DNA of 64,000 nucleotides, taken from contig NZ_CP023344.1 of NCBI RefSeq assembly GCF_002310495.1, forward strand, positions 3,303,501 through 3,367,500. Reading direction: 5' to 3'. Source of the DNA: Nibricoccus aquaticus (lineage in GTDB: Bacteria > Verrucomicrobiota > Verrucomicrobiia > Opitutales > Opitutaceae). Of the stretch, positions 2,143 to 31,296 are shown in pieces (position 1 is the stretch's first letter; the number at the start of each line of letters is the position of its first letter). The translations under genes and the position numbers were made by a program. The notes beneath the pieces are model-generated. The model was given only the letters and a program-made list of their open reading frames with translations. It was not told the origin of the DNA and ran no database searches.

Positions 2143-2224
2143 GGTGGGGAGTGTGCGATGCGAACGGCGCGGGCCGAGAATAATTGCGCACGACAGTCCG
2201 GGGCGGTTTTGTCGCGGGCGTTTT

Positions 2225-3616: not shown

Positions 3617-3628
3617 GCGGTCACGAAA

Positions 3629-3654
3629 AAGCGCGGCCGGTGAGGGCCGCGCTT
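3629..3654 (-). terminator. rho-independent terminator of clpP
   Basis: A perfect 10-bp stem (AAGCGCGGCC and GGCCGCGCTT) has a 6-nt loop. Read on the minus strand it is followed by a T-run (plus-strand A at 3626-3630). It lies 50 bp beyond the clpP stop. The plus strand lacks a T-run, so it is mainly a minus-strand terminator. Confidence 0.85.
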
Positions 3655-3703
3655 GAGGGAGGGAAAACTGGATACGCCGAAGATGGCGTGGGAGTTTCCC
3701 GAT

Positions 3704-5485: not shown

Positions 5486-6016
5486 ATGAAAAATAACCTA
5501 TATGCCCGCATCGTCGGGTTGTTTCTGTCAGTCAGCGTGGCCACGGCCATCGCTTCGGACAAGGTGAGTGTGCAAGCCAGCAGTGACCTGCGCGTGACGG
5601 TCATCGACAGCACGAGCGCATCGGATGCGCGGGCGCTGGTCCATACGGCGCTCGGCACGAGTCTCTCGGTAGGCATGACGCGTGAATGCAAAGCGCCGGT
5701 GCAGGTGAAGATCAAAGTCGCCGATGCCGGGCGCGCAGCGAAGGATCTGAAGGCTGGTTCGTGCGACGTGCTCGTCGTGATCGGCAACTCGGTCCCGCCC
5801 GTGCTCATGAAGAATGGTGCGACGGTTTTGAAGGCGACGGATGCGCGTAGCGGTGATTTGAACCGGACGTTCTACCTGCTCGCGAATACGAGCGATGTGG
5901 CGATGAACCAGATGGTCGGTCTGGCATTCGACCACGCGATCAAGTCAGCGACGTTCCAGGATGCTCTGGCCGGCAAGACTACGAGCGCTTCGGGTCTGGC
6001 CGCCACGGCCCGCTGA
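5486..6016 (+). CDS. small exported protein, half of a periplasmic-binding fold
   Basis: The function is unknown. There is a signal peptide of about 22 residues (MKNNLYARIVGLFLSVSVATAIA). The mature part has the alternating strand/helix look of one lobe of a type-2 periplasmic binding protein (VTVIDSTSASDARALVHTAL, KDLKAGSCDVLVVIGNS, YLLANTSDVAMNQMVGLAFD). At 176 residues it is shorter than phosphate- or molybdate-binding proteins, and no transporter genes are nearby. It carries two Cys (TRECKAP and KAGSCDV) that could form a periplasmic disulfide. A strong terminator follows, so it is probably transcribed alone. Confidence 0.65.
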   Translation: MKNNLYARIVGLFLSVSVATAIASDKVSVQASSDLRVTVIDSTSASDARALVHTALGTSLSVGMTRECKAPVQVKIKVADAGRAAKDLKAGSCDVLVVIGNSVPPVLMKNGATVLKATDARSGDLNRTFYLLANTSDVAMNQMVGLAFDHAIKSATFQDALAGKTTSASGLAATAR

Positions 6017-6047
6017 AGAGCGCGTTGTCAGAGCTGGGAAATTTCAA

Positions 6048-6077
6048 AGCCCCTCCTTTGCGGGAGGGGCTTTTTTG
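6048..6077 (+). terminator. rho-independent terminator, possibly bidirectional
   Basis: The arms AAGCCCCTCC and GGAGGGGCTT form a perfect 10-bp stem with a 6-nt loop, followed by TTTT on the plus strand. The minus strand also continues with T (TTTGAAATT), so it may serve both the exported-protein gene and sufT, which converge here. Confidence 0.88.
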
Positions 6078-6128
6078 TGTCTGCAAATATCGCGGTGGAA
6101 TGGCGAGGCCGCGTGAGAAGGGGGCGGA

Positions 6129-6674
6129 TCAGATCAGGCCGAGCTTCATTTTGCCCTCTTCGCTGATCATGGATTGGTTCCAGGCCGGCTCCCAGGTGAT
6201 GCGGACATCGGCCATGCTGACGCCGGGGAGGAGGAGGATTTTGGTTTTGGCGTCTTCTGCGATGGCGGGGCCCATGCCGCAGCCGGGGGCGGTGAGGGTC
6301 ATGGCGACGTCCACTTTGTAGCCTTGGTCGGCGTCGAGTTTGGAGACGTCCATCGAGTAAACGAGGCCGAGGTCGACGATGTTCACGGGGATCTCGGGAT
6401 CATAGACTTTTTTGAGTTGTTCCCAGACTGCGTCGGGATCTGGGGCGCCATTGGCGAGGGTGGCGGCTTCGACTTTTTGATCGACGACTTTTTCTCCGAG
6501 GGAGTCGGCGTCTTTGCCGTCGATGCGGTAGAGGCCGGTGTCGGTCTGGACGGTGTAGCTGCCGCCGAGAACCTGATGGATGAAAACTTTGGAGCCTGCG
6601 GTGAGCGGGTGTTTATCACCGGAGGGAATTTGAGTGGCGATGACGTCGCGGCTGAGAGTGCGGTCGTTTTGCAT
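6129..6674 (-). CDS. sufT: putative Fe-S assembly protein SufT (DUF59/MIP18-type)
   Basis: SufT-type proteins assist iron-sulfur cluster assembly or delivery in the cytoplasm. The start at 6674 gives MQNDRTLSRDVIATQIPSG, matching the family's opening; an upstream in-frame Met would add 12 unrelated residues. The first half contains the IPSG...QVLGGSYTVQ segment. The second half is a DUF59 domain with VYDPEIPVNIVDLGLVY and the conserved Cys in LTAPGCGMGP, ending in the ITWEPAWNQSMISEE signature. It lies 51 bp downstream of the ankyrin gene on the same strand and about 6.5 kb from sufCBD, so it may be co-transcribed with the ankyrin block. A shared terminator lies beyond its stop. Confidence 0.88.
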   Translation of the reverse strand: MQNDRTLSRDVIATQIPSGDKHPLTAGSKVFIHQVLGGSYTVQTDTGLYRIDGKDADSLGEKVVDQKVEAATLANGAPDPDAVWEQLKKVYDPEIPVNIVDLGLVYSMDVSKLDADQGYKVDVAMTLTAPGCGMGPAIAEDAKTKILLLPGVSMADVRITWEPAWNQSMISEEGKMKLGLI

Positions 6675-6725
6675 TCGCGCGAAGTGAAGCCGGGAGTGCG
6701 CGGCGTGCAACGTGGTTTTGCGGAT

Positions 6726-9497
6726 TCAGGGTGTGGCGGCGGGCGTGACGGTTTGCAGAGCGGAGGAGTTGCCGAGGTAGTCGCGTGGGGCGGCGAGGCG
6801 GGCGCGGTGGGCGAGGAGGAGTTTTTCCATGTCGGTGTCGTTCGCGTCGCGAGCGAGGGAGAGGGGGCTGGCGCCGCCGTAGATGTCGAAGGTGGCGAGG
6901 GAGCCGCCTTCGAGGAGAGCGTGGGCGACTTCGAAGTGGCGACCAGCGGCGGCGGCGCAGAGGGCGGATTCGCCGTTGTTGCGGGTGGCGTTGGGATGCG
7001 CGCCGGAGGAGAGTAGGAGGCGAACGGTCTCGACGTGGCCTGAGGCTGAGGCGGCGATGAGCGGGGTGCGACCTTCGATGTCGGTGAGGTTGATGCCTGC
7101 GTGGGCATCGGCGAGGGTGCGGACGACTTCGGTGTGGCCGGCGCGAGCGGCGAGGAAGAGGGGTGTTTGCAGTCGCGGATCGCGGGCGTCTTCGTCGGCG
7201 CCGGAGGTGAGTAGTTTGCGGACGGCGTCTAGGTCGCCGGAATTCGCGGCGAGGTGGAGCGGGGTGGTCGCTGGTGGTTGAACGGAGCGCAGGTGAGGCG
7301 GGATGGATTCGCGCGGGACTGGTTTCACTGTCTTCGGCGCTGGCGCCGGTGGTGATAAGGGGTCGGCGGCGGGGAAGGCACCGCTTTCCTGCGCGGTGGC
7401 GGTGGCGTTTGATGAAGGGACTGAGGGAGAGTCGGTGCGGGCGAGAAGAGACGGTGGGGTGGAGGCGGGAGCGGTGGCACCGCGTCGGCGGAGGAGTGTG
7501 GCGACGGGGCGGTGATTGTATTTTTCGGCGATGGAGAGCGGGCTCTGGCCGTCGGCAGTGAGGGTGTCGAGAGCGGCTCCGGCCTGGATGAGGGCGCGGG
7601 CGGTTTCGAAATGGCCTTCGCGGGCGGCGAGGAAGAGAGGCGTTTCGCCGGTGGCGGTAGCGAGGGCGGGAGAAGCGCCGGCGGTAAGGAGCGCGGAGAC
7701 AATGGTGGCGTGGCCGCGAGCGGAAGCGGCGAGCAAGGGCGTGTGGCCTGTGGAGTCGGCGGTGTCGGCGGGGACTTTCAAGTCGAGGAACGCGCGGACG
7801 AGGTCGAGGCGGTTTTCGGCGGCGGCGAAGTGGAGGGGTGTTTCTCCGGAGGGTGCGCAGGCATCGGGCTTGGCACCGTGTTTGAGGAAGAGGCGGGCGA
7901 TCTCGAGGTAGGCACCGTCGGGTGGTTCAATATAGTGCGGGCCGCGGGCGCCGGAGGCATAGTGGAGCGGGCTGAGACCGGCGGCGTCTGTGGTGGTGAC
8001 GGAGGCGCCTGCGGCGAGGAGGTGTTCGACGCTTTCGATGGAGCCGATTTTGGCGGCGAGGGCGAGCGGGGTGCGGCCTTCGGCGTCGGGCGTATCCGCC
8101 GAGGCATTGCGCGAAAGGAGGTAGCGGACGACGGGCGGGTAGCCGGTCTCGGCGGCGATGCAGAGCGGGGTGCGGCCGGCGGTGTCGCGGGCTTCGAGGT
8201 CGAGGCCGTGGGCGAGCAGGTAATCGCAGGTGGCGATCCAGCCGTTTTGCGCGGCGAGCCAGAGTGCGGTGCGGCCGTCTTTGGTGCGGGCGTCGAGGCG
8301 TGCTCCGTGGGCGACGAGGAGTTTGAGGGCGTCGAGGTGACCGCTTTGGGCGGCGAAGAGAACGGGTGTGAAGCCGTCGTCGAGGCGGGTGACGTTGGCG
8401 TCGGCGCCGCGGACGAGCAGGGCCTTGAGGAGGGTGATGTGGCCGTCGTAAGCGGAGATGCGGAGGGGGTTGAGCGTGCTGCGGTTGTTGACGATGCGGT
8501 CCTGGACGCTGGCGCCCCGGTCAAGGAGGACGAGGGCGGTGTCGATCGAGGCATCCTTGGCGGCCATGAAGAGCGGGGTGCGTTGTTGTTCGTCGGTGGC
8601 GTCCACTTCTGCGCCGTGGTCGCAGAGGATGGCGGCGGCCTCAGCGTATCCATAAAATGCGGCCATGAAGAGCGGGGTGCGGAGGCGGGCGTCGCGGGCG
8701 TTTAGCTCGGCACCGCGTTCGAGGAGGAGGCGGACGGCGGGGGCGCGGCCTTCTTTGGCGGCTTGATGGAGGGCGGTGAGGCCTTCGTTGTCGCGAGCGG
8801 CGATGTCGGCGCCGCTCGCGAGCAGGGTGACGATGGCGTCGAGCTGGCCCTCGCGGGCGGCGAGCATGAGGGGGGTCTGGCCGTCGGTGTTGCGGGAATC
8901 GATGGTTGCGCCCGCGTTTCGAAGCGCGGTGATCGAGCCGGGCTGGCCGGCGAGGGCGGCGCGGGCGAGGGGCGTGGCCCCGTTGGCGTTGGTGATGTCG
9001 GTGCGGGCGCCGCGCTCTTTGAGAAAGGCCATCATGGCGGTCTGGCCGTTGATCGCGGCGAGAACGAAAGGCGTGGCACCGGTGTTGGTGGTGGACTGTT
9101 CGAGGGTGGCGCCTCGATCGAGGAGGAGACGGGCGAGTTCGAGGTGGCCGGAGTGAGCGGCGATGCAGAGCGGGGTGGAGCCGTCGGTGTTTGTAGCGGT
9201 GTTAACGGCGGCGCCGTGGTCGAGGAGGAGGCGGGCGATTTCGAGGTGTCCGGAGTGGGCGGCGACGAAGAGCGGGGTGACGCCGTGGGGATCGGGGGTG
9301 TTGACCGTGGAGGGCGCGGCGCTGAGGAGGGCGCGAAGGGTGGCGAGGTCGTTTTGCTGGGCGGCGCGGTGGAGCGGGAAGCGTGGAGGGGGGGCGGGAG
9401 ACGCAGCAGGTGGGGAAACCGGTAGGGCGGGTGGTTCGGACGCGGTGAGCGGAGCGATGACGCAGAGAAGGATGAACGAGACGGCGAGGAGACGCAT
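6726..9497 (-). CDS. large secreted ankyrin-repeat protein
   Basis: An exported protein of about 923 residues made almost entirely of ankyrin repeats. Start 9497 (ATG) is preferred over GTG 9503, and both give a signal peptide (MRLLAVSFILLCVIAPLTAS). I count about 24 repeat units with the GxTPLxxAAxxGH pattern, starting at RFPLHRAAQQND. About 19 come before a Pro/Ser/Thr-rich linker (roughly residues 665-745) and five after it. No enzymatic domain is visible. Ankyrin arrays bind proteins, so a periplasmic or extracellular binding role is inferred, but the partner is unknown. The two paralogous repeat proteins upstream end 27 bp before its start, suggesting one transcription unit with them and perhaps sufT. 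Confidence 0.88.
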   Translation of the reverse strand: MRLLAVSFILLCVIAPLTASEPPALPVSPPAASPAPPPRFPLHRAAQQNDLATLRALLSAAPSTVNTPDPHGVTPLFVAAHSGHLEIARLLLDHGAAVNTATNTDGSTPLCIAAHSGHLELARLLLDRGATLEQSTTNTGATPFVLAAINGQTAMMAFLKERGARTDITNANGATPLARAALAGQPGSITALRNAGATIDSRNTDGQTPLMLAAREGQLDAIVTLLASGADIAARDNEGLTALHQAAKEGRAPAVRLLLERGAELNARDARLRTPLFMAAFYGYAEAAAILCDHGAEVDATDEQQRTPLFMAAKDASIDTALVLLDRGASVQDRIVNNRSTLNPLRISAYDGHITLLKALLVRGADANVTRLDDGFTPVLFAAQSGHLDALKLLVAHGARLDARTKDGRTALWLAAQNGWIATCDYLLAHGLDLEARDTAGRTPLCIAAETGYPPVVRYLLSRNASADTPDAEGRTPLALAAKIGSIESVEHLLAAGASVTTTDAAGLSPLHYASGARGPHYIEPPDGAYLEIARLFLKHGAKPDACAPSGETPLHFAAAENRLDLVRAFLDLKVPADTADSTGHTPLLAASARGHATIVSALLTAGASPALATATGETPLFLAAREGHFETARALIQAGAALDTLTADGQSPLSIAEKYNHRPVATLLRRRGATAPASTPPSLLARTDSPSVPSSNATATAQESGAFPAADPLSPPAPAPKTVKPVPRESIPPHLRSVQPPATTPLHLAANSGDLDAVRKLLTSGADEDARDPRLQTPLFLAARAGHTEVVRTLADAHAGINLTDIEGRTPLIAASASGHVETVRLLLSSGAHPNATRNNGESALCAAAAGRHFEVAHALLEGGSLATFDIYGGASPLSLARDANDTDMEKLLLAHRARLAAPRDYLGNSSALQTVTPAATP

Positions 9498-9524: not shown

Positions 9525-10694
9525 TTACGACTTGGATTTGCCGGCGCCGGTCGGAAGTGACTTGAGATCTTCGAGCAGGGTTTCCCGGGTGGCGGGGTGC
9601 TCGACGGCTTCGGCGTAGCGACGGGCGGCAATGGGGTCGCGCTGAGCCCAGTCTAAGAAAACGCGGCTCTTGGTCAGGATGCGTTTGGTGGTGTCGGAGA
9701 TGTTGTCGGTGAGTTCCATGGCGACCTCGGGCCGGGCGGCGATGAGGGTTTCGGAAACGGCGAGGGCGGCGATGCCGGGGTCGAAGTCGGGATCGGGATC
9801 GCCGCGGTTAATCCATTGGAGCGCGGCGACCGGGTCTTTTCCGGCCCAGCGTTGAAGGGAAATGGAGAGTGCCTGCGTGCGGTCGGCACCGGCGGGAAGT
9901 TTTTGAGCGAAGTCTGCGAAGTGGCGGGGGTCGAAGTCGGAGCGGCCTTCAATGAGACCTTTGAGGGCGGATGTGCGAATGGTAGGGTCGGTGAGGGAGG
10001 CGAGCTGGGCGTAGGCGCGGTCGGGGTCATGCTGGGCCCATTGATAAAAGGCAGAGTCGAGGAGGAAGGACTGGCGGTCGATCATGTTGGCGGAGGTGGC
10101 GAAGCGTGTGGCGGCGTCGAAGTTGCCGGTGCGTTCGACGAGGGCGTTGATGAGCATGTGGCCGTAGAAGCCGGCGGGCTCGGGATCGGCGGTGCACAGG
10201 CGGAGACCGACGCGCAGAGCGGCATCGGGCTGGGCGGTGGCGCCGGCGAGCACGGCGGCGACACATTTCATGCGTTCACCGAGGACGGTCTGTTGCATGG
10301 CCCAATCGGCGGCGGCATCGGGCTCGACGGCAGCCCAGCCGCGGAGGGAGGCGTCGCGGAGCTGGTCACGAGTGAGCCAGTTGCCCTCGGCGTCCGCGAG
10401 GGAGAGGGCGCGTTGCGGATCGGTGCGGGCGAGCGTTTCGAGGAGGGCTTCGCGTTCGCGGGTGAGGGCGGTGGTGTTGGGTTGGGTGGAGAGGGCGTTC
10501 CAGCGTTCATCCCACGTGGAGGCACTGGGAGGAGTTGAGCGAATGGCTGGTTTGGCGGAGGTGGGCGGAAGGGCGGCGGCCTGCCGGGCTGCGAGGGAAC
10601 GGGCGAGTATGAAGCCGATCAGGGCGGCGGAGAGGGCGAAGGTGGTGGCGGCGATTTTCGACCAGCCGGAGCGACGAGAGGAGGAGGCGGGCAT
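9525..10694 (-). CDS. membrane-anchored repeat protein, tandem paralog 2
   Basis: I do not recognise a named family. The start is ATG 10694. The frame is open much further upstream, but that part overlaps the other paralog and has shadow-like composition. The 389-residue product has one N-terminal transmembrane segment (about residues 14-34) and then an alpha-helical repeat region. A motif WAxxDPxxAxxxA recurs (WAAVEPDAAADWA, WAQHDPDRAYAQL, WAGKDPVAALQWI, WAQRDPIAARRYA). It shares with its neighbour the blocks ARTDPQRAL and LRLC(T/S)ADPEPAG, so the pair arose by duplication. It lies 43 bp after paralog 1 and 27 bp before the ankyrin gene. A scaffold role in the periplasm is only an inference. 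Confidence 0.75.
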   Translation of the reverse strand: MPASSSRRSGWSKIAATTFALSAALIGFILARSLAARQAAALPPTSAKPAIRSTPPSASTWDERWNALSTQPNTTALTREREALLETLARTDPQRALSLADAEGNWLTRDQLRDASLRGWAAVEPDAAADWAMQQTVLGERMKCVAAVLAGATAQPDAALRVGLRLCTADPEPAGFYGHMLINALVERTGNFDAATRFATSANMIDRQSFLLDSAFYQWAQHDPDRAYAQLASLTDPTIRTSALKGLIEGRSDFDPRHFADFAQKLPAGADRTQALSISLQRWAGKDPVAALQWINRGDPDPDFDPGIAALAVSETLIAARPEVAMELTDNISDTTKRILTKSRVFLDWAQRDPIAARRYAEAVEHPATRETLLEDLKSLPTGAGKSKS

Positions 10695-10737
10695 GGCGTG
10701 GTCGAAGGGCGGACGTTTGTGCGGATCGGCGACTGTG

Positions 10738-11937
10738 TCAGAGCGCACCGTCTGGATAGGTGTCGGCGAGGATGGCGGAGAGTGTGACGCGGTCGGCGGT
10801 GTTGGCGGAGCGGTCGATGTAGGCGCGGGCGGCGAGGGGATCGCGAGCGGCCCATTGTTGGAAGACGGAGCGCATGGTCTCGGTGCGTCTGGTGGGGTCG
10901 GAGATATCGGCGGCGAGGGCGAGCGCGGAGGCCGGGCTGGATTTGAGGAAGGATTGCTGGTTGGCGAGGGCGGCGAGGCCGGCGTCGAATTCGGGGCCGG
11001 TATCGTTTTTTTGAATCCAGGCGGCGGCTTCTTCGGGGTAGCGTTCGAGCCAGAGGGGCAGGGACTCGGCGAGGGCCTGAGTGCGCTCGGGGCCGGGTGG
11101 GAGCGTGAGTGCGTGATTGGCGAGGCCTGAGGCATCGGCCCAGGACCAGCCGGTGATGGCTTGGGCGCGGGCTTGGGCGGAGAGTTGTGGGTCGGCGATT
11201 TTTCCGGCGGCGGCGATTGCTTCGGCGGGACGTTGGCGGGCCCACTCGAAGTAAGCGGACTTGAAGAGAAAGGCGTATTTTTCGGAGCCCATCGCCGAGC
11301 TGAAATCGGCGGCTTGGGCGAAAGCGCCGACATTGACCAGTGCGGCGATGGCGGCGTGGCCGTAATCGCCAGCGGGTTCGGGATCGGCGGAGCAGAGGCG
11401 AAGAGCGAGGTGAACGGTGGCGTCGGGATCGGTGACAGCGCCTTGGAAAACGGCACCGACGACGGCGCGGCGATCTTCGATGCGGACGTTGAGCGCCCAG
11501 TCGGCGGCGGCGGCGGGGGCGGTGGAGGCCCAGCCGCGCACGGAGGCGTCGCGCAGGAGATCGCGGAGGCGCCAGTCGGGTTGGTTTTGAGCGAGGGCGA
11601 GTGCGCGTTGCGGATCGGTGCGGGCAAGTTCTTCGAGGAGGGAAGCGAGGGCCCGGGTGCGCGCAGGGGTGCTGGCGTAAGCAGTCGTTTCTTGCCAGCG
11701 ATCGGCCCAAGGGGATGCGGGGGCGGCAGGAGTTTTGTTGGAAATAGAGGCGAAGTCGTCGGACAGCGAGCGGGGCGAGGCGACTGCGACAGATGAGGAA
11801 GAGACAGTGGACCGGGAAAGGGGCCACGAACGGGGGCTCAGCCATCCGAGGGCGGCGCCGATAAGCGCGGTACCTAGACAGAGTGCTGTCACGGTGGACG
11901 ATGAGCAGCGGTGTGGCTCGAGGCAGGGAGACGGCAT
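10738..11937 (-). CDS. membrane-anchored repeat protein, tandem paralog 1
   Basis: This is the sister of the gene just downstream. Start ATG 11937 is chosen because MPSPC... aligns with the MPASS... start of the paralog and places the transmembrane segment (TALCLGTALIGAALGWL) at the same position. An alternative GTG at 11988 lies inside a strong hairpin and adds 17 residues. The 399-residue product has a Ser/Ala-rich linker and then helical repeats with ARTDPQRALALA, DLLRDASVRGWA, LRLCSADPEPAG, WLERYPEEAAAWI and WAARDPLAARAYI. No catalytic motif is seen. It appears to head a unit of paralog 1, paralog 2 and the ankyrin gene. Confidence 0.74.
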   Translation of the reverse strand: MPSPCLEPHRCSSSTVTALCLGTALIGAALGWLSPRSWPLSRSTVSSSSVAVASPRSLSDDFASISNKTPAAPASPWADRWQETTAYASTPARTRALASLLEELARTDPQRALALAQNQPDWRLRDLLRDASVRGWASTAPAAAADWALNVRIEDRRAVVGAVFQGAVTDPDATVHLALRLCSADPEPAGDYGHAAIAALVNVGAFAQAADFSSAMGSEKYAFLFKSAYFEWARQRPAEAIAAAGKIADPQLSAQARAQAITGWSWADASGLANHALTLPPGPERTQALAESLPLWLERYPEEAAAWIQKNDTGPEFDAGLAALANQQSFLKSSPASALALAADISDPTRRTETMRSVFQQWAARDPLAARAYIDRSANTADRVTLSAILADTYPDGAL

Positions 11938-11961
11938 CGAAGCGAGCGAGGGGGTAAAAGA

Positions 11962-12039
11962 GGGACGATGCGTCGGGGTATTACGCACCGTCCCTTGGAT
12001 ACGCGCCTGACAATCAGGTGCTCAGGCACCCGTTGTCAG
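11962..12039. repeat. two adjacent hairpins upstream of the paralog genes
   Basis: Hairpin one has arms 11962-11973 (GGGACGATGCGT) and 11983-11994 (ACGCACCGTCCC) with one mismatch and a 9-nt loop. Hairpin two has CTGACAA (12007-12013) with TTGTCAG (12033-12039) outside and GGTGC (12017-12021) with GCACC (12026-12030) inside, with a TCAG loop. They lie between the pectate lyase stop and paralog 1. No T-run follows either one. Confidence 0.6.
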
Positions 12040-12054
12040 ACGAGAGTACTGGGC

Positions 12055-12711
12055 TCAGTAGGTGAACGCCTGCGAGCTGCGGCCATACCACCAACCGTTG
12101 GAGCCGGTGAAGTTCGTGACGGTCATCGCGCGGTAGCCGAAGCGAGTGGAGGAAGCGTCGGTGCGGCCGATGGCTTCCTTGGTCGTGGCGGCGCGATTGT
12201 TGTCGTAGTAGAAGTTGCAGGTGAAGGTGGAGCCGCCGAGCTGGCGGATGTTCTTCAGGCCGTTGGTCTGCGTGTGGTAGTACAGCGTGACCGAGGTGGC
12301 GGCGTTGGCCTGGCCGAACTTGTCGGAGGCATTGACCGCGGAGGCACCGGAGACCCAGCAGTTGCCGCCGGATTTCACGGTGAATTGATCCTCGCCGACA
12401 TCCTGCCAGGTAACTTCGTTCATGGTGCCGTTTCCATAGAAGTGGCAGCCGTCCACGCCGGGGGCGGAGAGCTTCACGTTACGCAGAGTGGAATTTGCGT
12501 TGAGGCGGAAGAAAGGTTTTTGGCCTTCGCCCTGGCCGCCGTCGCCCATGCCCGAGGCTTTGATGGTGTTGCCGTTGCCATTATAGGTGGAGCCGGCCGG
12601 GATGACGTAGGTGCTGGTGAACGTGACCGTGGCGGCGGAGGCAGATGCAGCGAGGAACAGGCCGGCAAGGGCCGCGAGAGCGCGCAGAGCGCGTGTTGGG
12701 GTATCTTTCAT
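12055..12711 (-). CDS. secreted pectate lyase, PL3 family
   Basis: This enzyme probably cleaves polygalacturonate by beta-elimination outside the cell. The start at 12711 (MKDTPTRALRALAALAG) gives a good signal peptide ending ASASA; an earlier in-frame Met at 12936 would bury it. The mature part shows PL3 hallmarks: IPAGSTYNGNG, GCHFYGNGTMNEVTW, DVGEDQFTVK and KTR-like basic residues later, within about 195 residues, the usual length of a single-domain PL3 parallel beta-helix. No carbohydrate-binding module is attached. The leader has no Shine-Dalgarno and is A-rich on the coding strand. The gene stands alone, with a 466-bp non-coding stretch upstream, so it may be individually regulated. Confidence 0.83.
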   Translation of the reverse strand: MKDTPTRALRALAALAGLFLAASASAATVTFTSTYVIPAGSTYNGNGNTIKASGMGDGGQGEGQKPFFRLNANSTLRNVKLSAPGVDGCHFYGNGTMNEVTWQDVGEDQFTVKSGGNCWVSGASAVNASDKFGQANAATSVTLYYHTQTNGLKNIRQLGGSTFTCNFYYDNNRAATTKEAIGRTDASSTRFGYRAMTVTNFTGSNGWWYGRSSQAFTY

Positions 12712-22454: not shown

Positions 22455-23762
22455 ATGTCCGCGACTCTCTTTTTTCGCAGTATTCCCCGCTCTGTTGCGC
22501 TCGCTGTCTTGCTGATGGCGAACGCCGTGCGTGCCCAAGAAACAACCACGCCGCCCGGTGTCGGTGCTCCGCTCACGCTGGCGGGAGTGCTGACGCGTGT
22601 GGCTGAGAATAATCCCTCGCTCATCGCGCAGCGTTACGGCGAGCGCGCGGCTGAGGCGCTGATCGAGCAGGCGGGGCTGCGGCCGAATCCGACGCTCGAT
22701 GTCAGCGCCGAGAATTTTCTCGGCACGGGCAATGTTCAGGGGGGGCGCAGTCTCGAAACGACGGTGCAGGCGAGCCAGACGTTTGAGCGTGGCGGCAAAC
22801 GCGACCGGCGAGTCGCGCTGGCCAGTCGTGAGCGGGAAATGGCGGCCAAGGAGTTTGTCGTCCGCCGTGCTGAGGTACTCGCGGCTGCCGCAGTCGCTTA
22901 TGTGGAGACACTCGCCGCGCAGGAGCGCCTCGCGCTCGTCGAGGAGCCGCTGGCGCTTGCGCGCGAAACGCTCGCGGTAGTCGAAGCGCGTGTGAAAGAG
23001 GGCGCGGCATCTCCCGCTGAATCGGCGCGTGCGCGTGCGGCGCTGGCATCGGCACAGGGCGAATCGGCCCGCGCTCAGGCTGCGCTTTTCGCCGCGCGTG
23101 CGGCACTGGCGGCGACGTGGGGCGGACGCGCCGGAGAGATTGGTGCGTTGCCGGGAAAGATTTCCGTGCCCAAGACGTTGCCGGGCGAAGAGGTTTTTCT
23201 CGCGCAGATCGGGCGCCATCCTCGTTTCGAACTTCAACGTGCCGTCATTGAAGGCCGGCGGGCGTCGCTCGAACTGGAGAAGGCGCAGGCGGCGCAAGAC
23301 GTCACGGTGGGCGGCGGTGTGCGTTTTCTTCGCGAGGGGACGGACGCGGCGTTTGTCGCGGGCGTTTCGGTGCCGCTGCCGGTCCGGAATAAAAATCAGG
23401 GTAACATCCGCGCCGCGCGTGAAACTCTCGCCGGTGCGGAGCAGTCGCTGCGCGCGGTCGAAGCCGAGCTGCGCGCGAGTGTCACGGCTGCGTGGCAGGA
23501 ACTCGCCGGCGCGCATACGACAGCGCAAACGCTCCGGCGCGACGCGTTGCCCGCGACCGAGGAGGCGCACGCCGTCGTGCGCCGTGCGTATGAAGAAGGT
23601 CAGTTACCGCTGATCGACGTGCTCGATGCGCAGCGCGCACTCGTCTCCGTGCGGCGCGAGATCCTCGACGCCGAATCTGCTTACGCCTCCGCGCTCGCCC
23701 GCGTTGAAGGACTTACGAACCCCGCTTTCTCACTCACGACCGCTCTTATTTCAGCCCGATGA
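22455..23762 (+). CDS. TolC-family outer-membrane efflux channel (CzcC/CusC-like)
   Basis: This is the outer-membrane component of a tripartite RND metal pump; it forms a trimeric channel across the outer membrane and periplasm. A signal peptide (MSATLFFRSIPRS...VRA) is followed by two repeated helical halves typical of OEP proteins: LTRVAENNPSLIAQRY...ANPTL-like block, GRSLETTVQASQTFERGGKR, and the second half with VSVPLPVRNKNQGNI and EGQLPLIDVLDAQRAL. It has 435 residues. Its TGA overlaps the ATG of the adaptor gene (ATGA), so the two are translationally coupled. The metal cannot be read from this subunit, but the neighbours suggest copper or a similar thiophilic ion. Confidence 0.92.
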   Translation: MSATLFFRSIPRSVALAVLLMANAVRAQETTTPPGVGAPLTLAGVLTRVAENNPSLIAQRYGERAAEALIEQAGLRPNPTLDVSAENFLGTGNVQGGRSLETTVQASQTFERGGKRDRRVALASREREMAAKEFVVRRAEVLAAAAVAYVETLAAQERLALVEEPLALARETLAVVEARVKEGAASPAESARARAALASAQGESARAQAALFAARAALAATWGGRAGEIGALPGKISVPKTLPGEEVFLAQIGRHPRFELQRAVIEGRRASLELEKAQAAQDVTVGGGVRFLREGTDAAFVAGVSVPLPVRNKNQGNIRAARETLAGAEQSLRAVEAELRASVTAAWQELAGAHTTAQTLRRDALPATEEAHAVVRRAYEEGQLPLIDVLDAQRALVSVRREILDAESAYASALARVEGLTNPAFSLTTALISAR

Positions 23763-24955
23763 AAACACTCTCTGCTTCTCTCGTATTTATATTCTCCAGC
23801 GCGCTCGGCGTTTCGCTTTTCTCGGCTGATTCTGCGCGCATCGCGAACACGATCGTGCTCGATGCCGCTGGCGTTCAAAACCTTCGTATCCAGACGGTGG
23901 CCGTCGAAGAAGGCGATTTTGAGGAGAGCGTTTTCTCACTCGGTCGCATTGAAGCGAAGCCGGGCAATATCGCCGCCGTCAGCAGTCGCATCCAAGGTCG
24001 GGTCGTGGCGCTGAGCGCACTGCCCGGCGATGTCATCGCGGCTGGAGCGGAAGTCGCGAAAGTGGAGAGCCGTCAGCCGGGAAATCCGCCGCCGGTTATC
24101 TCGCTCACGGCTCCGCTCGGCGGGGTTGTGACGCAGCTCGATGTGCGTCTCGGCGATCCGGTGGAGCCGGAGAAGGCGCTGCTGGAGATCACGGATTTCA
24201 GCGAAGTCCTCGCGGTTGCCCGTGTGCCGGAACATGTCGCGGGTCGGCTCAAACCCGGCGCGAAAGCGAGTATCACGGTGTCGGCGTTACATGATGGAAA
24301 ACTCGAAGGTGAGTTGCTGCGCTTCGGGACAGTGGCGGATGCGGCGAGTGGGACGATCGACGCGATTTTCAAACTCGCGAATCTTGGGAACCGGCTTCGT
24401 CCCGGGATGCGCGCGGAGTTTTCCATCGTCGTCGCGCGTCGCGCAAATGTGATGAGCGTGCCGCGCAGTGCGTTGCAGGGAGAGCCGTCGGGGCGCTTCG
24501 TGTACGTGAAGGATTTTGATCTGCCCAACGCGTTCATCAAAACGCCGGTCGTGGTGGGGCAGATCAATGAGCGTGCGGCGGAAATCATCAGCGGGCTGCT
24601 GCCTGCCGATGAAGTCGTCACGCAGGGCGCGTACTCACTCGCGTTCGCGGGGGGCGGTAGTGTGTCGCTCAAGGAAGCGCTGGATGCGGCTCATGGGCAC
24701 GAGCACGCGGCGGACGGATCGGAACTGAAGGCGGATGCGAAAACGAAAGCGGCGTCTGCTTCAGGAAAAACCGAGGCGGGTGGAGATCACGGCCATGATC
24801 ATGGCGATCACGACCACGCGCATGGAGATGAGCACGATCACGACGATGAACATGGGCATGAGAATCCGTTCTGGATGATCGTGAGCGGCGTGCTGTTTGC
24901 CGCGCTGCTGGTCGTCGCGTTCTGGAAGAAACGCGGCGCGGCCAAATCGAACTGA
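23759..24955 (+). CDS. RND periplasmic adaptor with His-rich tail and C-terminal membrane helix
   Basis: This is the membrane-fusion subunit linking the RND pump to the TolC channel (CzcB/CusB-like). It has a signal peptide (MKTLSASLVFIFSSALGVSLFS), then the barrel and lipoyl halves (GRIEAKPGNIAAVSSRIQG, VISLTAPLGGVVTQLDVRLGD) and the beta-barrel region (VPRSALQGEPSGRFVYVKD). Unusually, after residue 320 there is a linker dense in His, Asp and Glu (GDHGHDHGDHDHAHGDEH-type), then a hydrophobic helix NPFWMIVSGVLFAALLVVAF and a basic end. It may bind metal at the membrane surface and be anchored from its C-terminus. It is coupled to the channel gene by a 4-bp overlap and lies 10 bp before the pump gene. 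Confidence 0.9.
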   Translation: MKTLSASLVFIFSSALGVSLFSADSARIANTIVLDAAGVQNLRIQTVAVEEGDFEESVFSLGRIEAKPGNIAAVSSRIQGRVVALSALPGDVIAAGAEVAKVESRQPGNPPPVISLTAPLGGVVTQLDVRLGDPVEPEKALLEITDFSEVLAVARVPEHVAGRLKPGAKASITVSALHDGKLEGELLRFGTVADAASGTIDAIFKLANLGNRLRPGMRAEFSIVVARRANVMSVPRSALQGEPSGRFVYVKDFDLPNAFIKTPVVVGQINERAAEIISGLLPADEVVTQGAYSLAFAGGGSVSLKEALDAAHGHEHAADGSELKADAKTKAASASGKTEAGGDHGHDHGDHDHAHGDEHDHDDEHGHENPFWMIVSGVLFAALLVVAFWKKRGAAKSN

Positions 24956-24965
24956 GGACTCTGCG

Positions 24966-27900
24966 ATGTTGAACAAACTTATCCAGTGGTCGCTCGCGAA
25001 CCGGGCCATCGTGCTCGGGCTCTCGCTCATCATTCTCGTGCTCGGCCTTCGCACGGGGACGCAGCTTCCCGTCGAAGTGTTGCCCGATCTCACGAAGCCG
25101 ACGGTCATCATTCTCACGGAAGCGCCCGGCCTCGCGCCGGAAGAAGTGGAGACGCGCGTCACGCAGCCGCTCGAAAGCGCGCTCATGGGAGTCGCCGGGT
25201 TGACGCGTTTGAGGTCGAACTCGGATGTCGCTCTCTCGCTCGTGTACGCGGAGTTCGGCTGGGAGACGGACATCTATCAGGCGCGCGTGCTGGTGCAGGA
25301 GCGCTTACAGTCCGCTCGTGAGCAACTCCCCGACAAGGTGCAGCCATTCATGACACCGGTCGCGTCGCTGATGGGGGAAATCCTTCTGGTCGGCGTGCGT
25401 TCGACGACGAAGGAAGGGGAGCCTGGATACATCGCGCCGAGTGATGTCAGGACGCTCGCTGATTGGACGATCAAGCGGCGGCTCCAGAGTATTCCAGGCA
25501 TCGCGGAAATCCTCAATATGGGCGGCGGCGTGAAGCAGATTGAGGTGCAGCCCGATCCTTACCGGATGCAGGCGCACGACGTGAGTTTCGCGGAGCTGGA
25601 GGAGGCGGTCGCTGAAACAGCGAGCACGACGACGGGTGGGTTTCTCAGTACGGGGCCGACGGAGATCATGGTGCGCAATCTCGCGATGACGACCGACCTC
25701 GGGGACATCGCGCGCACGGTCATCAAGAAGACGGGCGACCGTGCGGTGACGATTGGCGATGTGGCGGCGGTGGAGTGGGGGATCGAGCCGATGCGCGGAG
25801 ATGCGACCGTGAGCGTCGCTCCAGAAAAAGCGCCGACGTACGGCGTGATCATGTCGATCACCAAGGCGCCGGGCTTCGATACGCGCGCGCTCACGGAGCA
25901 GATCCAGGCGGCGTTGGAGGAATTGAAGACGAGTTTCCCGCCCGGCGTGGAGACAACGCTGTTGTTTCAGCAGAAGGATTTTATCGATCACGCTATCGGC
26001 AATCTGAAGGAGGCGATCCGCGATGGCGCGATCATGGTGACGGTGGTGTTGTTTCTCTTCCTCCTGAATTTCCGCACGACGTTCATCACGCTCATGGCGA
26101 TGCCGATGAGCTTCGCGATCACGCTGCTCGTGTTTCACCAGTTCGGGATTTCTGTGAACTCGATGACGCTAGGCGGACTTGCGGTGGCGATCGGCATGGT
26201 CGTCGATGATGCCATCGTGGACGTGGAAAATGTGTTCCGCCGGCTGCGCGAGAACGCGGCGCTGCCGCATCCGCGGCCGAAGCTGCAGGTGATCGGGCGC
26301 GCATCGGGCGAGGTGAGAAACTCGATCCTCTATGCGACGGTTTTGATCATCCTCGTTTTTCTCCCGCTGCTGGGGCTGAGCGGCGTGGAAGGGAAGCTCT
26401 TCGCGCCCATCGCGATTGCGACGATCATCAGCATGGTCGCGTCGTTCATCGTCTCGCTGACGTTGATCCCGGTGCTTTGTTCGTTGCTGCTCAGCCCCAA
26501 AGCGGGGCGTGAACACAAAGACGGGCGCTTCGTCGGCTTTCTGAAAAATCTCCTGCGCGCGACGTTGCTGCGGGCCGGGCTGAATTTCCCGATTCCTGTG
26601 CTGGGTGTCGTGATGATCGGGATGATTGGCGCGTTTTTGCTCTATCCGAAAATGAGCAAAGATTTTCTTCCGAGCTTTCGAGAAGAGACTGCGCTGATCG
26701 CCGTGACCTCGGCGCCCGGCACTTCGCTGGAGGAGATGAATAAAATTTCGGATGTGATCGAAGCGCAGATTCTCGCGGTCCCGGAGGTGCGCAAAGTCGG
26801 CCGGCGGCTCGGGCGTGCGGAGCGGGGCGATCATGTGGTTCCCGTTTCCACGGCGGAGTTCGACGTGGATTTTCGCGAGTTGGTCGGGCACGAGGGGAAG
26901 GCGGGCCGCAGTCGCAAAGAGATCCTCGCCGACCTCAACCGTCGTCTGAAAACGGTGCCGGGCGTCTTTGCTGTCGTTGGCGGACCACTGGCGGATCGCA
27001 TCGGCCATATGCTCAGCGGTGTGTCCGCGCCGGTGGCGATTAAAGTCTTCGGTCCGGACCTCGACACGCTCCGCCGCATCGGCACCGAGGTTCAGGCCGT
27101 TGCGAAAACGATTCCTGGTTTTGAAGACGCGAAGCTCGATCAGCAGTCGTCGATCCCACAGCTGCGCATCGAGGCGAATCGCGACCGGTCGGCTGCGTAC
27201 GGCGTCACTCCTGGGGCAATCAACGACCAGCTCAGCGCGCTCCTTGGCGGCAAGGAAATCGCCGAACTCCGCGACGGGCAGCGCGCGGTGAATCTGGTCA
27301 TCCGGCTGCCGCTGGCGTGGCGCGATTCGGCGGAGAAGATCGCGCAGATTCCTATCGAGATAGAGAGCGGGCAGCGCGTGCCGTTGTCGCTGGTTGCCGA
27401 CGTGCGCGAGGCGAAGGGGCCGAACGTCATCTTCCGGGAAAACAGCCAGCGACGGTTCACGATCGCGATCAAGCCGACGGTGCGCGATGTCGGCGCGCTC
27501 GTGGCGAAACTCCAGGAGGACGTGAAAGCGAAGGTGAAACTGCCTGAGGGCTACTTCATCACGTATGAGGGCGAGTTCCAGGCGCAGAAAGACGCGACGC
27601 AGCGGATCGTGCTCTTCAGCGCGGTGGTTTTTGTGATCATCGTTTTCCTGCTCTACGGTTATTTCCAGAGCATGGCGCTGGCGTTGCAGGTGATGTTGAG
27701 CATCCCGCTCTCGCTGGTCGGCGGCCTTGTGTACACGTGGCTCAAGGTAGACAACATCAGCATCGCCACGCTGGTCGGTTTCATCGCGGTCGGCGGGGTG
27801 GCGGCGCGCAACGGCATCATGATGCTCTCGCACTACCTGCATCTCATGAAACATGAGGGCGAGGGCTTCACACGTGCGATGGTCGAGCGCGGTACGCTGG

Positions 27901-28136
27901 AGCGCATGGTCCCGGTACTGATGACCGCGCTTGCCGCGGGCATCGCGCTGATTCCGCTCGTGCTCGCGGGCGATCAACCGGGCAAAGAAATCCTTCACCC
28001 GGTCGCCGTCGTGATCGTGGGCGGACTCATCTCGTCCACGCTCCTCGAGTTCCTCGTGAGGCCGTTAATCTTTTTTCATCTCGGCCGTAAAGCCGCTGCG
28101 CAGGCTATCGAGCGCGACGCGGCTGCTGCCCAGTGA
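24966..28136 (+). CDS. heavy-metal RND efflux pump (CzcA/CusA family)
   Basis: This is a proton-driven inner-membrane pump of the HME-RND class. Start ATG 24966 (MLNKLIQWSLANRAIV) is the standard beginning; an upstream in-frame Met falls inside the adaptor gene. The 1056-residue protein shows TM1, the VLPDLTKPTVIILTEAPG block, the large periplasmic loops, TM2-6 with AIGMVVDDAIVDVENVFRR (the Asp-containing proton-relay helix), the second half with GPDLDTLRRIGTEV, and the closing TM bundle with FIAVGGVAARNGIMML. The C-terminus HLGRKAAAQAIERD is cytoplasmic. The substrate is probably Cu+/Ag+ or Zn/Co/Cd; the adjacent multicopper oxidase favours copper. It is in an operon with the two genes upstream. 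Confidence 0.93.
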   Translation: MLNKLIQWSLANRAIVLGLSLIILVLGLRTGTQLPVEVLPDLTKPTVIILTEAPGLAPEEVETRVTQPLESALMGVAGLTRLRSNSDVALSLVYAEFGWETDIYQARVLVQERLQSAREQLPDKVQPFMTPVASLMGEILLVGVRSTTKEGEPGYIAPSDVRTLADWTIKRRLQSIPGIAEILNMGGGVKQIEVQPDPYRMQAHDVSFAELEEAVAETASTTTGGFLSTGPTEIMVRNLAMTTDLGDIARTVIKKTGDRAVTIGDVAAVEWGIEPMRGDATVSVAPEKAPTYGVIMSITKAPGFDTRALTEQIQAALEELKTSFPPGVETTLLFQQKDFIDHAIGNLKEAIRDGAIMVTVVLFLFLLNFRTTFITLMAMPMSFAITLLVFHQFGISVNSMTLGGLAVAIGMVVDDAIVDVENVFRRLRENAALPHPRPKLQVIGRASGEVRNSILYATVLIILVFLPLLGLSGVEGKLFAPIAIATIISMVASFIVSLTLIPVLCSLLLSPKAGREHKDGRFVGFLKNLLRATLLRAGLNFPIPVLGVVMIGMIGAFLLYPKMSKDFLPSFREETALIAVTSAPGTSLEEMNKISDVIEAQILAVPEVRKVGRRLGRAERGDHVVPVSTAEFDVDFRELVGHEGKAGRSRKEILADLNRRLKTVPGVFAVVGGPLADRIGHMLSGVSAPVAIKVFGPDLDTLRRIGTEVQAVAKTIPGFEDAKLDQQSSIPQLRIEANRDRSAAYGVTPGAINDQLSALLGGKEIAELRDGQRAVNLVIRLPLAWRDSAEKIAQIPIEIESGQRVPLSLVADVREAKGPNVIFRENSQRRFTIAIKPTVRDVGALVAKLQEDVKAKVKLPEGYFITYEGEFQAQKDATQRIVLFSAVVFVIIVFLLYGYFQSMALALQVMLSIPLSLVGGLVYTWLKVDNISIATLVGFIAVGGVAARNGIMMLSHYLHLMKHEGEGFTRAMVERGTLERMVPVLMTALAAGIALIPLVLAGDQPGKEILHPVAVVIVGGLISSTLLEFLVRPLIFFHLGRKAAAQAIERDAAAAQ

Positions 28137-28175: not shown

Positions 28176-28631
28176 ATGAAAATCAAAACCATCGTCTCTT
28201 CGTTTCTCGCGCTCTTGGTCCTTGGTCTCACGACCTCCATCGCGGAGGCGCATTCCAACGAAAAGAAAATCGCGGGCCCTAATGGCGGTCGCGTGCTCAC
28301 TAAGGTTGAACCGCACGCGGAATTTTTCGTCACGGCTGAGCGCAAAGTGCAGATCACGTTTCTCGGTGAGGACGGCAAAGCCATCGCTCCGGCCGCGCAA
28401 GTCGTGGCGGTTACAGCGGGTGATCGCGCGGCACCGACGAAACTGAGCTTTGCGAAATCGGGCGATGTCCTGATCTCCGATGTGGCGCTGCCTGCGGGAA
28501 ATAACTTTCCGGCGGTCGTGCAGATCAAGGCGACGCCTGACGCGAAAGCGGTGGCGGAGAAGTTCAATGTGAACCTTTCGCAGTGCGGCGAATGCGACAA
28601 AGCGGAGTACGCTTGCACCTGCGCGCACTGA
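28176..28631 (+). CDS. exported protein with Cys-rich C-terminus
   Basis: This small periplasmic protein of 151 residues has unknown biochemical role. The signal peptide is MKIKTIVSSFLALLVLGLTTSIAEA, and the mature part begins HSNEKKIAGPNGGRVL. The middle looks like a beta-sandwich (PHAEFFVTAERKVQITFLGEDGKAI), similar to small domains that accompany RND adaptors. The C-terminus SQCGECDKAEYACTCAH has four Cys and a His in a CxxC...CxC pattern, suggesting a metal-binding tail. It lies 39 bp after the pump gene and 27 bp before the multicopper oxidase gene on the same strand, so it is very likely co-expressed with them and probably binds the exported metal. Confidence 0.72.
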   Translation: MKIKTIVSSFLALLVLGLTTSIAEAHSNEKKIAGPNGGRVLTKVEPHAEFFVTAERKVQITFLGEDGKAIAPAAQVVAVTAGDRAAPTKLSFAKSGDVLISDVALPAGNNFPAVVQIKATPDAKAVAEKFNVNLSQCGECDKAEYACTCAH

Positions 28632-28658
28632 TCGGCGGGCTAACACTGGAGATGACTC

Positions 28659-30950
28659 ATGCAAGGGATCGCGCTGTCTGATTCGTATAACAGACGTGAC
28701 CACCTTCCGATTCCCGCAAACAGCCCTTCAGTCGTGAGACGCCTGTTCGCATTTTTCCTGCTCGATATGCTGCTCGGCGCCGTTGCGGCGCACGCCTGCG
28801 CGGAGTGCGGTGGGAAGAATAAAGCCGCGTGGCTGGCGCTCGAAGCGGGGCCGAAGGCATCGCAGCTTTTTCCTGATGCGCGGATCGTCGAGTACACGCT
28901 CGATATTGCCGAGACCATGCTTTCTCCGGCGGGGAAACCGGTGCGGGCGTTGACGATCAATGGCGCGGTGCCGGGGCCGGTGCTGCGGTTTCGCGAGGGG
29001 GATGTGGCGCGCATCCATGTGCGTAACCGGCTCGCGAAGGGGGAGACGTCGCTTCACTGGCATGGGCTGCTGCTGCCGAATCTGGAGGACGGCGTGCCTT
29101 ATCTGACCACGCCGCCGATTGGCGCGGGAGAAACGCGGACGTTCGAGTTTCTGCTCAAGCACGCCGGAACTTATTGGTACCATAGTCACACTGGGTTGCA
29201 GGAGCAGCGGGGCGTTTATGGGAGTATTGTGATCGAGCCTGCGACGGGTGCGTCTGCGCGGGCCGATCTGCCGCGCATCGATCGCGAAGAGGTGGTGGTG
29301 CTCTCCGACTGGACCAACGAAAACCCCGATGAGGTGATGCGCACGCTGCTGCGTGGGAGCGATTGGTACGCGATACGGAAGGGCACGGCGCAGTCGCTCA
29401 CCGGCGCGATGCGGGCGGGGCATTTGGGGGATTTTATTAAGCGCGAGAAATCCCGCGTGCCGCCGATGGATGTGTCCGATGTCGCTTACGACGCGTTTCT
29501 CGTCAATGGCCAGCGACGGCAGCGCATGGAAGGACGAGCGGGAGAGACGATCCGGCTGCGGGTGATCAACGCGGCGGCATCGACTTACTTTTATCTGAAC
29601 TCGGCTACCGGACCGCTGACGCTCGTCGCTGCGGACGGGATGGACGTGGCTCCGATTCAGCAGAACCGGTTGCTTATCGGTATGGCGGAGACGTACGACG
29701 TGCTCGTGACGGTTCCGGCGGATGGTGCGTGGGAAGTGCGGGCGACTTCGCAGGATGGGTCGGGATATGCGTCGCTGTTTCTCGGCGATGGTGCGGAGAA
29801 ACCGGCGGCCTCACTGGCGCCGCTTGAGATCTATAACATGAACGCTGCGATGGACGCGGTGCTCGATGAACTGGATGAGTCGGGCGAGATTACCGATGGG
29901 GAGGCACTCGCGAGCGAGAAGGCGCGGCCGTTGCCGCCGTACAAGCGGTTAAAGTCGACCCGGGCGACGACGTTGCCCGAGGGAGCGCCGGTGCGGGAGG
30001 TCACGCTCAAGCTTAGCGGCGACATGACGCGCTATAGCTGGTCGATCGACGACAAGCGTATCGACGAACAGGGCACGCTGGCCGTGAAGCGCGGGGAGGT
30101 CCTGCGGCTGGTGCTCGTGAACAACACGATGATGCACCACCCGATGCACCTGCATGGACATTTCTTCCGGCTGCTCCTGCCGGGCGCGGGCGATCCGGCG
30201 TTCGCGCCGCTCAAGCACACGGTGGACGTGCCGCCGATGAGTCGTCGCGTGATCGAGTTCTACGCCAACGAGGACCGCGACTGGTTGTTTCACTGTCACC
30301 TGCTTTATCACATGATGGCGGGCATGGCGCGGGTGGTGAGTTATCCGGCGGGCGAAGAAATGGCGGCGGCGGCGGAGAGTGGCGCTGCGCGTCCACTTGA
30401 AGAGAGCAAACTTGCCGAGCGCGGCAGTTACCGGCCGGCGCTCGGGGAGCACGGGCATCCGCACACGTACGCGTGGATTGAGGGCAGCGTACAATCGCAC
30501 TTGAGCACGGGCGTGGGCACGATCCAGCGTGGACGCGACAATGTGAATTTTCTCTGGGAAACGGGTTGGGAGCGCGTCGAGAAAACCGAATACGAGGTTG
30601 AGGCGGTGTACGCGCGTTACTTCAACGTGAGGTGGCGTGCCTTTGCGGGCTACCGGTTAACGAACATGCACGAGGCGCGCGATGGCGTCATCGCCGGGGC
30701 GACTTATCGATTGCCGTATCTGGTAGATTTGACGGGGACGCTTCAGAGCAGCGGGGAGACGCGCGTGGTTCTGGAGAAGACGATTCCGCTGACGGCGCGC
30801 ATCGGGGTGATGGCACGCATGGAGTACGACAGCGTGCAGACATTTTCCTGGATGAGCGGGCTGAGCTATACGGTGAGCAAACGGTTTTCCCTCATCGGCA
30901 GCTACGACTCCGAATATGGAGCGGGCGCGGGCGTCGGCTTTCGTTTCTGA
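28659..30950 (+). CDS. multicopper oxidase (CopA-like) fused to a beta-barrel-like C-terminal domain
   Basis: This is a periplasmic or outer-membrane-attached multicopper oxidase, probably oxidising Cu(I) to Cu(II). The start may be ATG 28659 (GGAG 8 nt upstream) or GTG 28734, which puts the signal segment VRRLFAFFLLDMLLGAVAAHA first. CopA-type motifs are LHWHG (133-135), WYHSHTGLQEQ (175-177), MHHPMHLHGHFF (about 492-501) and FHCHLLYHMMAGM (about 544-556), giving all type 1, 2 and 3 copper ligands. Residues from about 590 to 763 form alternating amphipathic strands, with repeated GYRLTNMH, GATYRLPYLVDL and the aromatic end GVGFRF, resembling a CopB outer-membrane barrel. An ACAECGGK motif follows the signal. 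It sits inside the metal cluster. Confidence 0.88.
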   Translation: MQGIALSDSYNRRDHLPIPANSPSVVRRLFAFFLLDMLLGAVAAHACAECGGKNKAAWLALEAGPKASQLFPDARIVEYTLDIAETMLSPAGKPVRALTINGAVPGPVLRFREGDVARIHVRNRLAKGETSLHWHGLLLPNLEDGVPYLTTPPIGAGETRTFEFLLKHAGTYWYHSHTGLQEQRGVYGSIVIEPATGASARADLPRIDREEVVVLSDWTNENPDEVMRTLLRGSDWYAIRKGTAQSLTGAMRAGHLGDFIKREKSRVPPMDVSDVAYDAFLVNGQRRQRMEGRAGETIRLRVINAAASTYFYLNSATGPLTLVAADGMDVAPIQQNRLLIGMAETYDVLVTVPADGAWEVRATSQDGSGYASLFLGDGAEKPAASLAPLEIYNMNAAMDAVLDELDESGEITDGEALASEKARPLPPYKRLKSTRATTLPEGAPVREVTLKLSGDMTRYSWSIDDKRIDEQGTLAVKRGEVLRLVLVNNTMMHHPMHLHGHFFRLLLPGAGDPAFAPLKHTVDVPPMSRRVIEFYANEDRDWLFHCHLLYHMMAGMARVVSYPAGEEMAAAAESGAARPLEESKLAERGSYRPALGEHGHPHTYAWIEGSVQSHLSTGVGTIQRGRDNVNFLWETGWERVEKTEYEVEAVYARYFNVRWRAFAGYRLTNMHEARDGVIAGATYRLPYLVDLTGTLQSSGETRVVLEKTIPLTARIGVMARMEYDSVQTFSWMSGLSYTVSKRFSLIGSYDSEYGAGAGVGFRF

Positions 30951-30972: not shown

Positions 30973-31296
30973 ATGAAGATCAAAAAAGCATTCCTCCTCA
31001 CTGCGTTGTTATTCGCAGTCGTATCGAGCGGCGGCGGCACGACCAGCTTCGCGGCTGACAGTGCTGCGGGCAGCGCGGCAGCACCTGAAGAAAAGAAGCC
31101 AGCGAAAGAAGCGCCGAAGCCTTATCCGCTGGATGTGTGCATCGTGACGGATAACGACCTTGGCTCGATGGGCGAGGAGACCTCGATGGTTTACGAGGGG
31201 CAGACGATCAAGTTCTGCTGCGCTCCCTGTGAGCGGAAGTTTTTGAAGAACCCGGCGAAGTATCTGGAGAAGCTCGCGCCGGAGAAGCGGAAGTAG
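30973..31296 (+). CDS. small exported TRASH/YHS-like metal-binding protein
   Basis: This 107-residue exported protein closes the metal cluster. Start ATG 30973 gives the signal peptide MKIKKAFLLTALLFAVVSSG; a longer frame start overlaps the oxidase gene. After a Glu/Lys/Pro linker there is a compact domain from about residue 52 with Cys56 (LDVCIVTDNDLG) and a Cys triad at 82, 83 and 86 (IKFCCAPCERKFLKNP), as in TRASH/YHS domains that bind copper or other soft metals. It lies 22 bp after the oxidase. A role in periplasmic copper binding is inferred from motif and context. It converges on the hydrolase gene with only 17 bp between stops and no evident terminator. Confidence 0.78.
   Translation: MKIKKAFLLTALLFAVVSSGGGTTSFAADSAAGSAAAPEEKKPAKEAPKPYPLDVCIVTDNDLGSMGEETSMVYEGQTIKFCCAPCERKFLKNPAKYLEKLAPEKRK

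Follow-up and report, generated by a model that had tools for sequence, protein, structure and literature searches.

A CopA-type multicopper oxidase and a divergent CopB-like barrel in one reading frame of Nibricoccus aquaticus and its relatives

Copper defence by the PcoA-PcoB (CopA-CopB) pair involves an oxidase and an outer-membrane barrel, usually two distinct proteins, whose interplay is documented (PMC9210255, PMC12509749), PcoB being a 12-strand barrel with both ends in the periplasm (PMC9210255). A gene in the 64,000-nucleotide stretch of the Nibricoccus aquaticus genome analyzed here (the window) appears to encode both parts at once, which raises the question of whether these are truly one protein and, if so, how such a protein would be exported and what it would do with copper.

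The fused gene and its oxidase part

The gene is a single intact frame of 763 codons without a frameshift (28659-30950, plus strand), and a GGAG at 28648-28651 lies 7 bases upstream of its ATG. Its parts are as follows:

28659..30950, +, CDS of 763 aa, fusion of a multicopper oxidase and a 12-strand outer-membrane barrel (frame, Pfam, AlphaFold2 models)
28659..28796, +, N-terminal extension and signal peptide, residues 1-46, ending in AHA before Cys47 and containing RRLF (sequence reading)
28797..28808, +, CAEC (CxxC, residues 47-50), predicted mature N-terminus (sequence; kept in close relatives)
28881..30344, +, three-cupredoxin multicopper oxidase part, CopA/PcoA-like, residues ~75-562 (Pfam, NCBIfam, full-length model)
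29055..29066, +, copper motif HWHG, residues 133-136 (sequence; invariant across 43 relatives)
29178..29189, +, copper motif YHSH, residues 174-177, within YWYHSH at 172 (sequence; nearly invariant in 43 relatives)
30138..30161, +, copper motif HPMHLHGH, residues 494-501 (sequence)
30291..30326, +, copper motif HCHLLYHMMAGM, residues 545-556 (sequence)
30345..30464, +, linker, residues 563-602 (low model confidence)
30465..30947, +, CopB-related 12-strand beta-barrel, residues 603-763, with an aromatic F as last residue (AlphaFold2, structure match, profile match)

The predicted mature protein starts with CAECGGK, and the CxxC, kept in close Opitutales relatives, is possibly a copper-binding or redox site.

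All four copper-ligand motifs listed above are present and, together with the three cupredoxin domains, assign the oxidase to the CopA/PcoA type. The first-pass annotation had read a complete set of CopA-type ligands from the sequence, and the alignment of 43 relatives, in which these ligands are invariant or nearly so, bears this out. The protein matches Pfam Cu-oxidase_3, Cu-oxidase and Cu-oxidase_2 far above their cut-offs, and its best NCBIfam family by far is TIGR01480 copper_res_A (CopA), at 392.6 bits under a cut-off of 478.95. The Met-rich insert found in many relatives is missing, residues 385-430 containing two Met and no His, and cuprous oxidase activity of the window protein is therefore uncertain. 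An oxidase that acts mainly on another substrate, such as phenolics, Fe(II) or Mn(II), with the barrel providing placement in the envelope, would be in keeping with the absent insert, with the copper_res_A score below cut-off and with the general laccases among the structural matches of the whole model. We nevertheless regard this explanation as improbable, given that CopA still outscores every other family by a wide margin and that relatives of the fused gene are neighbors of copper ATPases, HMA and DUF305 proteins.

A twelve-stranded tail related to CopB

The region after the oxidase had been described from the sequence as about 170 residues of strands, correctly, and its structure prediction had been proposed in the expectation of an eight-strand barrel; the models return a barrel fold but one of twelve strands. 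AlphaFold2, given 43 sequences from the fetched loci, modeled the tail as twelve antiparallel strands at a pLDDT of 90.7, and the full-length model (pLDDT 85.8, pTM 0.86) places the same twelve strands at residues 603-762. The closest solved structure is PcoB/CopB, 7PGE (Foldseek E 4.4e-5), which VIA-align superimposes on the tail over 161 residues at 3.4 A with a Z score of 16.8, compared with 14.7 for the next structure. OmpLA, the next structural match of the tail after PcoB, is also the protein that the PcoB authors name as a fold neighbor (PMC9210255).

By sequence the kinship is more distant. The tail scores 15.8 bits (E 0.011) against Pfam CopB PF05275, whose gathering cut-off of 27 bits is not reached, a direct search of the organism's own genome with PF05275 gave no match, and phmmer with the tail alone found no match in the PDB. 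The HMMER search for PF05275 at the C-terminus that had been suggested earlier would thus miss this tail, because the barrel is divergent. Several relatives of the window protein do match PF05275, the best at 5.8e-6, and a profile built from the tail recovers PcoB 7PGE from the PDB by sequence (E 8e-4). Aligned by hhalign with a CopB profile of eight stand-alone CopBs, the tail profile gives 96.8%, E 2.5e-10, over 132 columns, whereas reversed, column-shuffled and even/odd-preserving shuffled controls reach 0.023 or worse, and an unrelated outer-membrane protein of the window gives 0.081 over 9 columns. With the structural match and these clean controls, the earlier proposal that a CopB-like outer-membrane barrel is fused to the oxidase is upheld.

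HMMs built separately from each barrel set separate three classes. Short fused barrels score 98-251 bits on their own HMM and at most 27 on the CopB HMM, and stand-alone CopBs score 258-333 bits on the CopB HMM and 20-40 on the short-barrel HMM; the barrels of a gammaproteobacterial fused class reach 82-97 bits on the CopB HMM, compared with 12.6 bits for the window tail. On these comparisons the window tail is best described as a divergent sister of CopB, since its score lies under the Pfam CopB cut-off.

Spread of the fusion, its neighborhood and its lineages

The window protein runs ~200 residues beyond its last copper motif, and a tail of 179-229 residues follows that motif in 79/79 parsed relatives, these loci having been chosen as the best full-length matches in genome contigs and one of them (L129) having an internal stop. 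Stand-alone CopAs end 7-22 residues past the motif in 12 of the 13 parsed and 47 residues past it in the remaining one. Databases had been suspected of holding similar fusions, and hundreds of relatives do share the oxidase-barrel build. The fused frame occurs in Verrucomicrobiota, Bacteroidota, Nitrospirota, Thermodesulfobacteriota, Acidobacteriota, Myxococcota, Bdellovibrionota and Pseudomonadota. That the frame reflects an error of assembly or annotation, or a chance joining of two genes, could be argued from the few relatives that are split or frameshifted, such as that of a Hymenobacter; we give this virtually no credence, because fused frames turn up in eight or more phyla and in isolates, plasmids and closed genomes. 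The conservation of the fused frame, which agrees with the first-pass reading of one open frame, led us to reject the frameshift or two-gene interpretation.

In a census with the tail profile, about 9% of the Verrucomicrobiota species sampled carried the tail (26/288, a hand count from which a stand-alone CopB and a fragment at a contig end were excluded), as did 17% of the Bacteroidota species sampled (51/296, leaving out 11 weak stand-alone CopB-like matches). Census matches nearly always lie within the oxidase's own frame of 700-980 residues. Among the 288 Verrucomicrobiota genomes the strong matches are almost all in frames of 700-830 aa, the sole CopB-like outsider being a true stand-alone CopB. 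The same profile finds the tail only rarely in Gammaproteobacteria, and a search of viral contigs found no relatives. Plasmid copies of the fused gene belong to copper islands, and their annotation reads only 'multicopper oxidase', with the barrel unmentioned.

Two records have unusual frames. On a plasmid of Hymenobacter sp. DG25B (L032) the annotation divides the fused gene into two (5851-7197 and 7218-8300), probably because of a frameshift, and records split in this way could mislead on architecture. At L195 (3419-8491, minus strand; G747) an open frame of 1691 residues has the fused oxidase-barrel at its end and ~870 residues ahead of it.

Around the fused gene the window contains:

22455..23762, +, TolC-type outer membrane efflux protein (PF02321)
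23759..24955, +, RND periplasmic adaptor (PF16576, TIGR01730)
24966..28136, +, CusA/CzcA-family RND pump (TIGR00914, over cut-off)
28176..28631, +, 151-aa secreted-looking protein with a Cys/His end, QCGECDKAEYACTCAH (no Pfam or NCBIfam family)
30973..31296, +, YHS/TRASH-like metal-binding protein directly downstream of the fused gene (Pfam)

A YHS/TRASH-like gene also adjoins the fused gene in 12 related loci of Verrucomicrobiota; no relative of the protein at 28176-28631 turned up around the other fused genes in the related loci searched. The first-pass annotation placed the oxidase next to the exit of the RND pump, and RND genes do adjoin the fused gene here; as a general feature we rejected this co-location because RND genes are within reach in 20/88 related loci only. 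The fused oxidase has a DUF3347 gene nearby in 47 of the 88 loci searched, these 47 being nearly all from Bacteroidota (loci L087-L150), and the DUF3347 product is possibly a functional partner of the fused oxidase.

The fused protein has the same two domains as PcoA and PcoB, in the order in which these are encoded by adjacent genes of pco/cop operons, with CopA-type copper motifs and a 12-strand barrel matching 7PGE; it differs in being one polypeptide whose barrel is divergent and shorter, and its fused relatives lack the Tat signal of stand-alone CopA. A 2012 paper (PMC3548706) had already reported fused PcoA-PcoB from five Legionella species, likewise an oxidase and a CopB-type barrel in one frame. 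The six gammaproteobacterial fusions in our set resemble the Legionella type, to which they may be linked; like the short-barrel fusions they are without a Tat motif, although their barrels are nearer to canonical CopB, as the scores above indicate, and their oxidases form a separate clade. Bacteroidota proteins named 'Multicopper oxidase domain-containing protein' (Hymenobacter, Spirosoma, Flavobacterium, Pontibacter and others) have the same fused architecture, belong to the same short-barrel family and share one clade with the window protein on the oxidase tree, but they often carry Met/His-rich inserts that the window member lacks. Fusions were not reported in the other CopB papers that we searched, and among open-licence PMC papers we found none describing the Verrucomicrobiota/Bacteroidota fusion. 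The CopA of one further paper (PMC11082258) is the P-type ATPase of that name and has no bearing on the oxidase. Fusion as such has a published precedent in Legionella, while the switch of export route and the divergent barrel family look new.

On the oxidase tree the short-barrel fusions, the second fused class and the stand-alone CopAs form three clades. Its root is not fixed, the outgroup being one very long parsed row only, and the tree would be compatible both with one fusion followed by a later split and with two fusions.

Separate adjacent copA and copB genes occur in a member (G003) of the family to which the window belongs, and also in its order. A close relative (L162, G006) encodes the fused CDS (9858-12134, minus strand) along with a stand-alone CopA (6351-8294, minus strand) and CopB (5528-6361, minus strand), in an island that also holds RND, P-type ATPase and YHS/TRASH genes; having both forms, it implies that fused and separate forms are not simply exchangeable. 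At another locus (L163) a stand-alone oxidase without a Tat motif (1731-3587, plus strand) has a His-rich C-terminal extension and overlaps a separate canonical CopB gene (3526-4284, plus strand); its branch is basal in the stand-alone clade, and it has the appearance of an intermediate.

Export route and a proposed mechanism

The two architectures differ in their N-termini, which we classed by regular expression rather than by a trained predictor. A Tat motif followed by a hydrophobic stretch is present in 34/35 stand-alone CopA-type oxidases, L163 being the sole exception, and in 0/114 fused proteins (108 short-barrel and six of the second class); the Fisher value of 5e-30 overstates this difference, since the rows are related, the fused proteins fall into two clades and some stand-alone sequences are near-copies. 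With a relaxed motif the counts are 34/35 and 2/114, and the window protein is one of the two. Its RRLF is without the S/T/N/D-RRxF[LV] context, which makes its own signal ambiguous between Sec and Tat; its nearest relatives (L002, L003 and L044) have no twin-arginine motif and are of plain Sec type. Tat carries folded proteins, and a barrel inserted by BAM must cross the inner membrane unfolded, so that loss of the Tat motif in the fusions fits membrane biology. The N-termini suggest that fused oxidases are exported by Sec, in which case their copper would be acquired in the periplasm.

We propose that the window protein is a one-polypeptide version of the PcoA-PcoB copper-defence pair tethered beneath the outer membrane, and we consider this reading likely. 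The fused protein would cross the inner membrane unfolded, most likely via Sec, and its C-terminal barrel would insert in the outer membrane. Twelve strands should leave both barrel ends in the periplasm, as in PcoB, and the oxidase should therefore face the periplasm, hanging on the periplasmic face of the barrel by its ~40-residue linker; there it would take up its coppers and then oxidize Cu(I) to Cu(II). The disordered N-terminal region of stand-alone PcoB stabilizes PcoA and may dock it (PMC12509749), and covalent joining by a short linker would act as if in place of that docking.

Whether copper also passes through the barrel is less clear. The copper-site pairs of PcoB, D97-E207 and E130-E223, are without clear counterparts in the tail by an approximate, low-identity alignment, and because these residues are not clearly kept, passage of copper through the barrel is unproven and outward movement of the Cu(II) product is speculative. 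It is quite possible, if short of an even prospect, that the barrel is just an outer-membrane anchor for the oxidase and does not conduct copper: beyond the pairs that are not clearly kept, the fused barrel is shorter than that of PcoB (161/198 residues aligned), and in place of PcoB's longer, His-rich disordered region the fusions have linkers with a median of 42 residues and mostly 0-2 His. The barrel does, however, descend from a copper-channel family and not from an unrelated anchor, and the acidic E646, which lies near PcoB E142 in an approximate alignment, is kept in 42/43 relatives. A bolder version of our proposal, which we hold only tentatively and think rather unlikely, is that these proteins are widespread and apparently undescribed one-piece copper oxidase-exporters, in which an oxidase formerly folded in the cytoplasm and exported by Tat has moved to Sec-BAM, gains its copper in the periplasm and hands Cu(II) to its own barrel.

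The role of PcoB and its physical partnership with PcoA are debated, uptake and efflux both having been argued in published work, and a 2025 study proposed that PcoB docks and stabilizes PcoA (PMC12509749). The occurrence of fusions in many phyla suggests joint action of the two halves at the outer membrane, and a natural fusion provides a protein of fixed stoichiometry for testing joint action of PcoA and PcoB. This large protein group is under-annotated, its barrel lying under the Pfam CopB cut-off and going unnamed in the plasmid records checked. The lost Tat motif offers a clean case of an altered architecture that apparently forces a different export route.
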